NCBI GenBank assembly: GCA_025999455.1
Contig: AP024683.1
Coordinates: forward strand, 2,425,501 to 2,489,500
Direction: 5' to 3'
Length of the DNA: 64,000 nucleotides
From: Geminicoccaceae bacterium
GTDB taxonomy: Bacteria > Pseudomonadota > Alphaproteobacteria > Geminicoccales > Geminicoccaceae
Program-made: the position numbers and the translations under genes
Shown: piece after piece, positions 2 through 3,219 of the stretch
How the letters are laid out: the number at the start of each line of letters is the position of its first letter
Position numbering within the stretch: position 1 is the stretch's first letter
Notes under the pieces: model-generated
The model's input: the letters and a program-made list of their open reading frames with translations, nothing else
Databases searched by the model: none
Told to the model about the DNA's origin: nothing

Positions 2-1639
2 CGCTACCGCTACACCGCCCGCGACGGGGTCGCGACGGAGGTGACACTCCGGGCCGAGCCGAAGCCGCGCGAGCTGCGCCGCGGGCAGCTTTCCTGGACG
101 GTCGAGCTCGAACCGGGCGAACGCTGCGCCTTCGACTGGGCGGTCCTCCTCGAGCCCGCCGCGGCCCGGCCGGTCGGCTTCACCCGGGCGCTTTCCCGCC
201 TGCGCCGCGAACGCCGAGCGGCACCCTGGGCCGTCGCCCGGATCGAGACCTCGAGCAGCCTCGTCGACGAGATCTTCGCCCGCGCGCTGGGTGATCTGCG
301 GATGCTCACGACCGACACCCCGCACGGGCCCTACCCTTACGCCGGCCTTCCCTGGTTCGCGACGATCTTCGGCCGCGACGGGGCGATCACCGCGCTCGAG
401 ATGCTCGAGCTCGCCCCGGGGCTCGCCCGCGGTGTGCTCGAGGTGCTCGCCGCCACCCAGGCCCGGACGCTCGATCCGGCGCGCGACGCCGAGCCCGGCA
501 AAATCCTCCACGAGGCCCGCGAGGGCGAGCTCGCGCGGCTCGGGGAGGTGCCCTTCGGCCGCTACTACGGCAGCGTCGATGCGACCCCGCTCTTCGTCGT
601 GCTGGCCGGGCGCTTCCTCCGGCGGACCGGGGATCTGGCGACGATCCGCGGGATCCTGCCGGCGATCCGCGCCGCGCTCGACTGGATCGAACGGTTCGGC
701 GACGGCGACGGCGACGGCTTCGTCGAATACGGCCGGGTGAGCGAGCGCGGCCTCGTCAACCAGGGCTGGAAGGATTCCGAGGACGCGGTGTTCCACGCCG
801 ACGGGCGGCCGGCCACACCTCCGATCGCGCTCGTCGAGGTCCAAGCTTACGTCCACGCCACCTGGTCGGAGGCGGCGCGGCTCTTCGAGCGGCTCGGCGA
901 GCCCGACGAAGCCCGCCGCTGCGCCGCCCGTGCGGCGGCCCTCGCCGAGCGGTTCCGGGAGGCGTTCTGGTCGGAAGAGCTCGGCAGCTTCGTGCTCGCC
1001 CTCGACGGCGCGAAGCGGCCCTGTCGGGTGCGCACCTCCAACGCCGGCCACGTGCTGCTCGCCGATCTCGCGAGCCCCGCGCAGGTCGAACGGCTCGCCG
1101 AGCTCTTGGCCTCGCCGCGCTTCTTCTCGGGCTGGGGGATCCGCACCGTGGCCGAGGGCGAGCCGGGCTACGTGCCGATCTCCTACCACAACGGCTCGGT
1201 CTGGCCGCACGACACGGCGCTCGTCGCGATGGGGTTCGCGCGTCACGGCCGCACCGAGCTCGCGCGCCGGCTGTTCGACGGGCTCCTGGCCGCGGCGGCG
1301 GCGAGCCCGCTCCGGCGTCTGCCGGAACTCTTCTGCGGCTTCCGACGCCGGCGCGGCGCCGGGCCCACACCGTACCCGAGCGCCTGCTCGCCGCAGGCCT
1401 GGGCGGCGGCGGCCCTGCCCGCCTGCCTCGGCGCGAGCCTCGGGCTCGAGATCGAGGCCGAGCCGGCGCGGATCCGCCTCGCCCATCCGCGCCTGCCGGC
1501 TTCGCTCGACTGGGTGCGGCTGCGCGGGCTCGAGGTCGGCGCCGCCCGGGTCGATCTCCTCTTGCGTCGGCACGAGGAGGACGTCGCGGTCAACGTGCTC
1601 GAGCGGACCGGGGCGGTCGAGATCCAGGTCGTGCTGTGA
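2..1639 (+). CDS. Glycogen-debranching-type amylo-alpha-1,6-glucosidase, 5' partial
   Basis: Cytoplasmic glucosidase of the bacterial glycogen-debranching (GDE_C, (alpha/alpha)6 barrel) family, expected to act on alpha-1,6 branches or related alpha-glucans. The reading frame is open to the left window edge, so the N-terminal domain is cut; the GTG at base 41 is only an internal codon. Family landmarks are the GLPWF..IFGRDG block near base 340-375, the WKDSEDAVFHADG block near 768-806 and YHNGSVWPHDT near 1184-1216, which carry the usual acidic and aromatic active-site residues. The last 27 codons are repeated almost exactly at 2423-2503, past a toxin-antitoxin pair. Family assignment is firm; the exact substrate cannot be read from sequence. 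Confidence 0.88.
   Translation, partial: RYRYTARDGVATEVTLRAEPKPRELRRGQLSWTVELEPGERCAFDWAVLLEPAAARPVGFTRALSRLRRERRAAPWAVARIETSSSLVDEIFARALGDLRMLTTDTPHGPYPYAGLPWFATIFGRDGAITALEMLELAPGLARGVLEVLAATQARTLDPARDAEPGKILHEAREGELARLGEVPFGRYYGSVDATPLFVVLAGRFLRRTGDLATIRGILPAIRAALDWIERFGDGDGDGFVEYGRVSERGLVNQGWKDSEDAVFHADGRPATPPIALVEVQAYVHATWSEAARLFERLGEPDEARRCAARAAALAERFREAFWSEELGSFVLALDGAKRPCRVRTSNAGHVLLADLASPAQVERLAELLASPRFFSGWGIRTVAEGEPGYVPISYHNGSVWPHDTALVAMGFARHGRTELARRLFDGLLAAAAASPLRRLPELFCGFRRRRGAGPTPYPSACSPQAWAAAALPACLGASLGLEIEAEPARIRLAHPRLPASLDWVRLRGLEVGAARVDLLLRRHEEDVAVNVLERTGAVEIQVVL
1559..1639 (+). repeat. 81-bp direct repeat, copy 1 (3' end of the glucosidase gene)
   Basis: This segment encodes the glucosidase C-terminus (LLRRHEEDVAVNV... 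to the stop). It matches 2423-2503 at 78 of 81 positions by direct comparison, in the same orientation and with an offset of 864 bases. The two copies bracket the toxin-antitoxin pair. Confidence 0.95.
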
Positions 1640-1703
1640 GGGGAGCCGTCCCCGCGCGATCGCGCCGCGTCGGATCGGTTCCCCGGGTGTTCGATCGCCC
1701 GAG

Positions 1704-1973
1704 CTAACGGGCGAAAACCTCCGGATGTCGAGCCACGACCCTCAAGAGTGCCAAAGCGGGCCCACGGGGCATGCGGCGACCCCGCTCCCAGTCCTGCAAC
1801 GTCCGCACGCTCACGCCCACGAGAGCCGCGAAGGCGGACTGCCCGAGGCCGAGCCGGTCGCGGATCGCTTTCACGTCGCCCGGCGTAGCGACCTCGTAGC
1901 GCCGGCCTTCACCCCGCTTGATCGCCCGGACCGCCTCCAAGAGCTCGGCACCGAGATCGCGCTCGGTGTTCAT
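1704..1973 (-). CDS. HigA/NadS-type antitoxin, XRE helix-turn-helix
   Basis: An 89-residue DNA-binding antitoxin expected to neutralise the toxin encoded just upstream and to repress the shared promoter. Residues about 30-85 form an XRE/Cro helix-turn-helix (VKAIRDRLGLGQ, then AFAALVGVSVRTLQDWERG), followed by the RHPEVF tail common in this antitoxin family. The ATG at 1973 overlaps the toxin stop by four bases (ATGA), so the order is toxin first, as in higBA-type modules. A longer open frame runs upstream to 2204 but only duplicates the toxin region out of frame. It converges on the glucosidase gene with a 64-bp gap. Confidence 0.85.
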   Translation of the reverse strand: MNTERDLGAELLEAVRAIKRGEGRRYEVATPGDVKAIRDRLGLGQSAFAALVGVSVRTLQDWERGRRMPRGPALALLRVVARHPEVFAR

Positions 1974-2284
1974 TTTTCGATCTCCTCTCGAATCGCCCAC
2001 AGAACGTCGGCGGGCAGGTCGGTCTCCTCGTTCTTGGCGTACACCGCGAGCAACCAAATTTCCCGGACCGACGGCCGCCAAAAAAAATAGATGATACGGT
2101 ACCCGCCCGATTTGCCGCGGCCCGACCCACGCCATCGGAGCTTTCGCAGGCCGCCAGAGCCCGGGATCAGCGTCCCGGCCTCGGGCCGCGTGGCGAGCGT
2201 CCATTGCAGCGCGGCGAGTTCGGCATCGTCGAGATAGTCGGCGACCCTGCGGGTGAAACCGGGCGCTTCGACGAACCGAACCAC
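1970..2284 (-). CDS. RelE/HigB-family toxin
   Basis: A 104-residue protein of the RelE/ParE superfamily, probably an mRNA-cleaving ribosome-dependent toxin as in HigB. The pattern fits: an N-terminal helical part, then GSGGLRKLRWRGSGRGKSGGYRIIYFF, the basic beta-sheet core seen in HigB-like toxins, then LLAVYAKNEETDLP. The start codon is GTG at 2284 with no strong ribosome site. It is translationally coupled to the antitoxin by an ATGA overlap. Activity is inferred from family only. Confidence 0.84.
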   Translation of the reverse strand: MVRFVEAPGFTRRVADYLDDAELAALQWTLATRPEAGTLIPGSGGLRKLRWRGSGRGKSGGYRIIYFFWRPSVREIWLLAVYAKNEETDLPADVLWAIREEIEK

Positions 2285-2422
2285 GACGACACTCTAAGGC
2301 GGTGCCGGGACCTTGCCCAGACGCTCGCGCCGAGAGACGTGGAAGGAGCGGGCTCCCCGAGAACCAGGCGGAGGGCTCGCGATGATCCGACCGTTCCCCC
2401 GCAGAACGCCCGTGCCGCGTTG

Positions 2423-2503
2423 CTCTTGCGTCGGCACGAGGAGGACGTCGCGGTCAACGTGCTCGAGCGGACCGGGGCGGTCGAGACCCAGGTGGTGCTC
2501 TGA
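2423..2503 (+). repeat. 81-bp direct repeat, copy 2 (displaced copy of the glucosidase 3' end)
   Basis: A second copy of the last 27 codons of the glucosidase, with three substitutions (ATC to ACC, GTC to GTG, CTG to CTC) and the stop kept. No start codon or upstream domain accompanies it, so it is a fragment and not a gene. The few codons before it also resemble the parent (AR..LLLRRHEED). It is followed by a hairpin and then by a short stretch resembling the antitoxin 3' end. Confidence 0.93.
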
Positions 2504-2527
2504 GCGGAGGCGGGGACGTGCCTCCGC
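2504..2527 (+). terminator. Hairpin after repeat copy 2
   Basis: An 8-bp perfect stem, GCGGAGGC with GCCTCCGC, encloses an 8-base loop directly after the duplicated stop codon. There is no T-tract, as expected at this GC level. It could be a terminator or a relic of the duplication. Confidence 0.4.
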
Positions 2528-2589
2528 CTCGCCGAAAGCCTTCGGATGTCGAGACGGGCGAAGCCCCGGATCCCGCGCTGGGCGAAGGC

Positions 2590-3051
2590 TCAGATCTTGA
2601 GATAAGCGAAGCCCTCGCGCTGCTGCAGCCGGGCGATCTCGAACACGCCCGAGGGCACGAGGTCGCTCTCCTCGGCGTCGTAGAGCTCCGCGAGCGGGAT
2701 GTTGCCGCGCTTCAAGGTGATCGAGCAGATCTGGAAGCGCACGCCCGCGAGCTTGAGCTCGTCGATGGTCGCGGCGATCTGCTTGTCGGCCGGGGCGGCC
2801 CGCCGCAACAGGTTGACGCCCGGGCCGTGCATGACGATGCGGATCTCGAGCCCTTCGGGCGGGGCGATGCTCAGATGGTTCTGCACGTTGGTGAGCATCT
2901 GCCGATAATAGGCGAAATCTTCGCCGCCCGGCTGGTTCAGGTGGTAGACGACCTTGTAGGGGCCGGCGGCGGCCTGCGCCGCGGCGGCGGGCAGCGTGGC
3001 GCCGGCCGCGAGCGCCGGCACGGCGAGACGACGCGAAAGCTCGCGCGCCAC
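2590..3051 (-). CDS. Exported DsrE/DsrF-like family protein
   Basis: A 153-residue protein of the DsrE-like fold, a family tied to sulfur relay although many exported members have no known reaction. A signal peptide is evident (basic ARELSRR, then an Ala/Leu-rich core ending near AAAAQA), so it should be periplasmic. The mature part has the family strands KVVYHLNQ, IRIVMHGPGV and a helix around ADKQIAATIDELKLAGVRFQIC with one conserved-position Cys. I chose GTG at 3051 because GGGAGG lies 8 bases before it; an ATG at 3096 would add 15 residues ahead of the signal peptide. The neighbours do not suggest a pathway. Confidence 0.8.
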   Translation of the reverse strand: MARELSRRLAVPALAAGATLPAAAAQAAAGPYKVVYHLNQPGGEDFAYYRQMLTNVQNHLSIAPPEGLEIRIVMHGPGVNLLRRAAPADKQIAATIDELKLAGVRFQICSITLKRGNIPLAELYDAEESDLVPSGVFEIARLQQREGFAYLKI

Positions 3052-3143
3052 GGACTTGCCTCCCTCGCGCGGCCGCGCCACCGCGGCGCGGCGCATCCTG
3101 AAGCATTCGCTGATGGAAGGAGGCGGTCAAGAGCGCGGGCGGT

Positions 3144-3219
3144 TGGCTGGGGGACTAGGGATCGAACCTAGGACCTCCTGATCCAGAGTCAGGCGTGCTA
3201 CCAGCTGCACCATCCCCCA
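3144..3219 (-). tRNA. tRNA-Gln (anticodon CUG)
   Basis: A 76-nt cloverleaf including an encoded CCA end. The acceptor TGGGGGA pairs with TCCCCCA, the anticodon stem CCTGA/TCAGG encloses loop CTCTGGA (anticodon CUG, reading CAG), and the T arm CTAGG/CCTAG encloses TTCGATC. The U1 start and G73 discriminator suit glutamine tRNA. It lies directly after the cca gene, whose product repairs tRNA 3' ends, but it has its own promoter. Confidence 0.95.

Follow-up and report, generated by a model that had tools for sequence, protein, structure and literature searches.

Background

The HigB2/HigA2 pair of Vibrio cholerae (higBA-2), which sits in the superintegron, is the closest described relative of the toxin–antitoxin (TA) module reported here. 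It provides the nearest solved structures for both proteins, and in both modules the toxin gene comes first and the two genes overlap. The module reported here differs in that it has no attC-like site and is flanked on either side by a copy of the end of a host gene. Genomic islands inserted by tyrosine recombinases resemble our locus in other respects: the target gene stays whole, a spare 3' end is found at the far side, and successive insertions stack. At the loci described below, however, there is no integrase, the repeat changes with the target gene, and its length ranges between 38 and 268 bp, unlike the fixed short target duplication of a DDE transposon. Small cassettes can also be gained between conserved genes without a recombinase, as captured by the concepts of homology-facilitated illegitimate recombination and minimal mobile elements. 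These two concepts alone do not predict a duplicated gene end at many unrelated targets.

The available part of a 2020 review states that the way in which TA pairs of the chromosome move and become integrated is unknown, and describes TA insertions between chromosomal genes, namely relA-mazG, dinB-yafP and folA-apaH (PMC7167474). These share with our locus a small TA operon between adjacent genes and the lack of a visible mobile element. Duplication of the end of the neighbouring gene, which is the signature here, is not described in that part of the review (PMC7167474). In the open-access literature we found no description of a TA insertion with gene-end duplication.

A TA pair between two copies of a gene end

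The locus lies at the beginning of the window, a stretch of 64,000 nucleotides from the genome of a Geminicoccaceae bacterium (contig AP024683.1). The 3' end of a glycosidase gene is present twice, and it is certain that the two copies enclose a TA pair (Table 1). Ungapped extension gave a direct repeat family of 106 nt with 90% identity and a spacing of 864. The initial annotation had reported that the last 81 bases of the gene recur with three mismatches, and our alignment agrees. The first 63 nt of this core are free of mismatches; five lie within the next ~25 nt, spanning the stop codon. The open frames and the repeat coordinates also place the TA pair between the copies, as had been claimed. 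The intact gene keeps its own end, and beyond the module there is a spare end which has kept the stop codon and lacks the gene. This spare end was recovered as a 31-residue fragment in the glycosidase protein search as well. The inserted segment has a GC content of 0.679 compared with 0.714 for the window.

Table 1. Features of the window locus (positions in the window) and repeats at other loci
Feature	Position	Strand	Basis or repeat
MGH1-like glycoside hydrolase gene (amylo-alpha-1,6-glucosidase-like), 3' part with intact end	2..1639	+	open frame; Pfam PF22422 8e-24, PF06202 9e-10; conserved in G001, G003, G004
Gene-end copy 1 (core 1559-1639), part of the intact gene	1543..1648	+	repeat search, alignment
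Insert (758 bp) consisting essentially of the TA operon	1649..2406		between the copies; absent in congeners G001, G003, G004
Antitoxin, 89 aa, HigA2-like Xre-HTH	1704..1973	-	HTH_3 2e-9; PDB matches
Antitoxin gene 3' end, matching 2533-2553	1712..1732	-	19/21 identical; unique pair in genome
Toxin, 104 aa, HigB2-like, GTG start	1970..2284	-	PDB matches; homologues in G006, G019
Toxin upstream region with presumed promoter, reaching the spare end	2285..2406		sequence only
Copy 2 of the gene end, spare (core 2423-2503)	2407..2512	+	repeat search, alignment
Possible remnant of the antitoxin tail, beyond the spare end	2533..2553	-	19/21; weak
DsrE-like gene, next neighbour	2590..3096	-	PF02635 8e-9; beside tRNA-Gln also in G005
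tRNA-Gln(CTG)	3144..3219	-	ARAGORN; directly follows the glycosidase gene in G001, G003, G004
L051, PhyH gene end			110 bp, 95%
L140, Phage_tail_S gene end, viral contig			104 bp, 95%
L145, unnamed phage gene end			38 bp, 95%
L155, ilvD end (G271)			47 bp, 96%
L229, RAYT-like gene end (match of relatives weak, below model cut-off)			71 bp, 90%
L117, SDR gene 5' end			268 bp, 88%
L060, ParE-like/VapB pair bracketed
L079, HicAB bracketed			HicB by Pfam; HicA assigned by us
L121, RelB/YafQ bracketed
L133, BrnT-like/RHH pair bracketed			assigned by eye, no Pfam match

From homology, the helix–turn–helix (HTH) domain and the gene order, the pair is predicted to be a TA system of the HigB2/HigA2 type. 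The solved structures nearest to the toxin in a phmmer search were those of HigB-2 (PDB 9tv9, 5ja8 and 5ja9, 3e-18 to 1e-17), and those nearest to the antitoxin were of HigA-2 (PDB 9tv9, 5j9i and 5jaa, 2e-13 to 5e-13). No Pfam or NCBIfam model reached the toxin. The antitoxin has a C-terminal HTH of the Xre type that matches HTH_3; a NadS-like model stayed below its cut-off. Both genes are on the minus strand in a toxin-first operon and overlap by 4 nt. Several relatives carry ATACGGCATTGCCGTAT-like palindromes upstream of the toxin gene, of which the window has a degenerate version only. Two further genera of the family, represented by G006 and G019, carry close homologues of the toxin (73-75% protein identity), there at other loci; plasmids searched with the toxin gave no match. 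Elsewhere in the window genome, at L050 (G000:C1:3573783-3574016), another HigB2-like toxin, a distant one (39%), is accompanied by an HTH antitoxin.

TA-free sites in relatives

The comparison set comprised one genome per species. In three congeners (G001, G003 and G004) a single glycosidase gene end is followed by a spacer of ~70-200 nt and then by tRNA-Gln(CTG) and a pcnB-like gene; neither a TA pair nor a second gene end nor dsrE was found at the glycosidase gene. The glycosidase gene itself was not found in G005 or G002. Single gene ends in relatives had been named as what would support an insertion, and the three congeners do so; a relative having the repeat and lacking the TA pair, named as what would speak against it, was not encountered among the congeners. 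The toxin was absent from all congeners examined. Since the congener sites have single ends and are TA-free, and no congener has the pair, the simplest reading of the sequences is that the TA pair and the duplication were gained together in the lineage of the window.

Two observations limit this comparison. The spacers of the window and the congeners are too diverged for telling the native from the new gene end. Furthermore, the sequence beyond the site differs in the congeners and also in G173 (see below), so that there is no empty site with both flanks conserved, which counts against the insertion reading. The dsrE gene adjoins tRNA-Gln in the window (2590-3219) and in G005. In G001 and G003 it has a different location, and the search for it in G002 and G004 gave nothing. 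Because its placement differs among the congeners, the interval from the glycosidase gene to tRNA-Gln is variable in the genus.

A further TA-free site was found for ilvD. In G173, the sister species of G271, ilvD (93% identity) occurs with a single end and lacks a TA at this place. The spare ilvD end of G271 (L155) matches this empty site fully and for 3 nt further. A relative of the same TA (86%) is present on another contig of G173. For the phage cases the search for empty sites in IMG/VR yielded no close phage relatives; the phage records show similarity at the level of the terminase only.

Recurrence at other HigB2-type loci

We surveyed 213 distinct HigB2-type loci (1.4 Mb), 194 of which were usable, for direct repeats of at least 30 nt with at least 85% identity and a spacing of 450-1600, present in exactly two copies per locus. 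The TA pair was bracketed by 10 of the 20 two-copy repeats found, with 0.75 expected under random placement; when twenty repeat pairs were placed at random, seven or more bracketing repeats occurred in none of 20,000 simulations. An earlier control with shifted placement (7/76 vs 18/626) mixed arrays with two-copy repeats and was hence replaced by the two-copy test. The survey counts duplications only, leaving out insertions with a deletion or without a duplication, and the loci were picked around TA pairs, so that the rate for non-TA genes comes from the same contigs only. About 95% of the usable loci have no such repeat, which is a point against the insertion reading. Consequently, either duplication is not the sole route of entry or it fades fast.

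Seven of the ten bracketing repeats are ends of neighbouring genes that are mutually unrelated (the window and the first six loci in Table 1). In these seven cases the insert measures 719-781 bp, which is little more than the TA operon. The repeats at L127, L232 and L242 also bracket the TA; they are not clear gene ends and were left out of the seven.

Two further repeated sequences were noted at these loci. The SDR repeat at L117 starts with a GGGATCGGATCTTGT motif, which is possibly a dispersed repeat (positions 639, 918 and 1688); a diverged third copy of the motif lies just upstream of the toxin gene. At L229 a sequence of 53 bases at the contig end (1-53) recurs with 85-100% identity in many genomes of the genus; a dispersed mobile element probably ends here.

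Other TA families and stacking of modules

Of the ten two-copy repeats that do not bracket a HigB2-type pair, at least four enclose other TA or TA-like pairs (the last four loci in Table 1). L163 contains an RHH antitoxin together with a putative RelE remnant. At L133 the repeated sequence comes from the 3' end of a gene that we identified by eye as an aldo-keto reductase gene, and HigBA abuts the spare end. At L140 the outer copy abuts the stop codon of a gene that we assigned as HicB-like.

Modules also accrete at one and the same gene end. In G890 three copies of a RAYT-like gene end separate a TA of the HI1419/HI1420 type from HigBA. Compared with the gene end at L229, the outer copy is 79% and the other 89% identical; the stronger divergence of the outer copy is what one would see if each new module went in beside the gene. 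In G972 a pair of the HigBA-1 type separates the HigBA2 block from the gene, and no additional copy of the gene end is present. In the genus of G483 (L311, L312, L313 and L321), the 3' end of a RAYT-like gene is adjoined by a cluster of TA or TA-like modules from several families (HigBA2, HI1419/1420-type, HigBA-1 and DUF4160/DUF2442), and repeats of the gene end lie between the modules.

We tentatively consider it possible that TA operons of many families are mobile units which, free of any recombinase, enter preferentially at gene ends with a target duplication of 20-270 bp and stack there, older spare ends being pushed outward.

A possible remnant of the antitoxin gene

Outside the spare end, the initial annotation had described a stretch (2531-2555) whose minus strand reads SRHPKAF, as is the case, and had likened it to the tail of the antitoxin. 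The likeness holds at the DNA level (Table 1): allowing up to 3 mismatches, a scan of the 3.76-Mb genome gave the sequence at 1712-1732 and 2533-2553 and nowhere else. The score was reached in 0 of 500 shuffles when the near flank only was compared and in 3 of 500 when the whole insert was compared with the whole downstream region. The remnant is therefore, by its match, probably real, though small. The decayed second module that had been derived from it fared less well, as the match is thin evidence for one and, these 21 bases aside, no trace of a toxin or antitoxin gene was found in the second flank.

A spare antitoxin tail may also come about in another way. The repeat at L079 consists of the last 23 nt of a HigA-type antitoxin gene plus 11 nt. 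Since this repeat includes the antitoxin end, a spare tail can mark the insertion of a different TA, here HicAB, at that place, and the 21-nt tail in the window may by analogy be the trace of another TA that entered at the antitoxin end. In the G019 homologue a degenerate antitoxin tail, encoding a SPARLRAVAKHPEALA-like peptide, lies behind the toxin gene (L018, 12036-12122).

How the module may have entered

We prefer the reading, with a probability of about 0.58, that a HigBA operon went into the glycosidase gene at its 3' end with a target duplication of ~100 bases, by illegitimate copying and with selection for an intact gene. A HigB2/HigA2-type operon of ~0.7-0.8 kb would have entered the 3' end of the gene, duplicating its last ~100 bases. 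The intact gene end would thereby have come to lie beside the antitoxin gene, and the old end would have been displaced beyond the toxin gene. As to the molecular mechanism, we infer that the operon was most likely inserted illegitimately, with the target being copied twice, either by strand switching in repair or replication or by fill-in of a long staggered break. An insertion in the coding end would survive only if all sequence downstream of the entry point were duplicated and the gene restored; selection for the restored gene would explain why the repeats are gene ends. Addiction would then guard the module against recombining out.

The main rival to a target-duplicating insertion is a one-sided import anchored by homology, in which a donor carrying the gene end and the TA recombines within the gene end and the other side is joined illegitimately; the donor would then have supplied the inner end, and the spare end would be that of the recipient. 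The clustering of the mismatches in the window, behind the long identical part of the repeat, is crossover-like (roughly p 0.002, post hoc); recombination of two alleles accounts for it better than uniform decay following a duplication, which counts against the insertion reading, and several of the repeats differ by 5-12%. The mismatches at L051 and L229, however, are scattered along the repeat, and the junction of gene end and TA was seen in no congener. Moreover, an import of this kind spreads existing junctions only, so that a first junction would still be needed at seven or more unrelated genes, and we regard it as rather unlikely. Still less probable, in our view, is a tandem duplication of the 864-bp unit of gene end and TA in which the second TA was later lost except for 21 bases of the antitoxin tail. 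It would account for the match directly beyond the spare copy, which has no equal in the genome, and the degenerate tail behind the toxin gene in G019 is in line with it. Yet the second module is otherwise traceless, the spare end at L155 continues into the sequence of the empty site and not into module sequence, the outer copy at L140 abuts the unrelated HicB-like gene, and L079 shows another route to a spare tail. Of the two origins that the initial annotation had proposed, duplication of the target on entry is borne out by the single-end congeners and the recurrence; a tandem duplication with a decayed second module has the 21 bases to go by.

Very improbable is an ordinary mobile element or integron cassette, with the repeats being att or attC sites or transposon ends. 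Related loci with multi-copy, array-like repeats (L103, L114 and L100) would suit such an element, as would the RAYT-like nature of the target gene in the L229/G890 group. The absence of a visible transposase or terminal inverted repeat, pointed out initially, holds at the window locus; the 758-bp insert contains the toxin and antitoxin genes only and no integrase, although a recombinase could act in trans. No inverted-repeat arms at the insert borders were among the 25 longest inverted repeats listed, and a comparison by eye of the insert borders of eight loci revealed no shared motif. A shared att core is absent as well, each repeat being a piece of its own target gene; the different targets, repeat sequences and variable lengths argue against a fixed attachment site. 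An integron origin was considered and rejected: RYYYAAC/GTTRRRY core pairs are absent, the fold z is near 0 at the window repeat, and folding at the recurrent gene-end cases is not strongly unusual. Chance similarity or an assembly artefact can practically be dismissed as the source of the repeat; beyond the short remnant nothing speaks in its favour, and the length and identity of the repeat, a window genome that is one 3.76-Mb contig and the bracketing enrichment speak against it.

Implications

The duplicated gene end marks the unit that moved (~0.7-0.8 kb, TA only), its entry point and the order of insertions, and TA movement thereby becomes testable on public genomes. Target-duplicating insertion predicts that homologous deletion between the repeats restores the empty site, which addiction would oppose. 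That the arrangement recurs at unrelated genes, both in distantly related bacteria and in phages, is a clue to how TA modules may move without a transposase.
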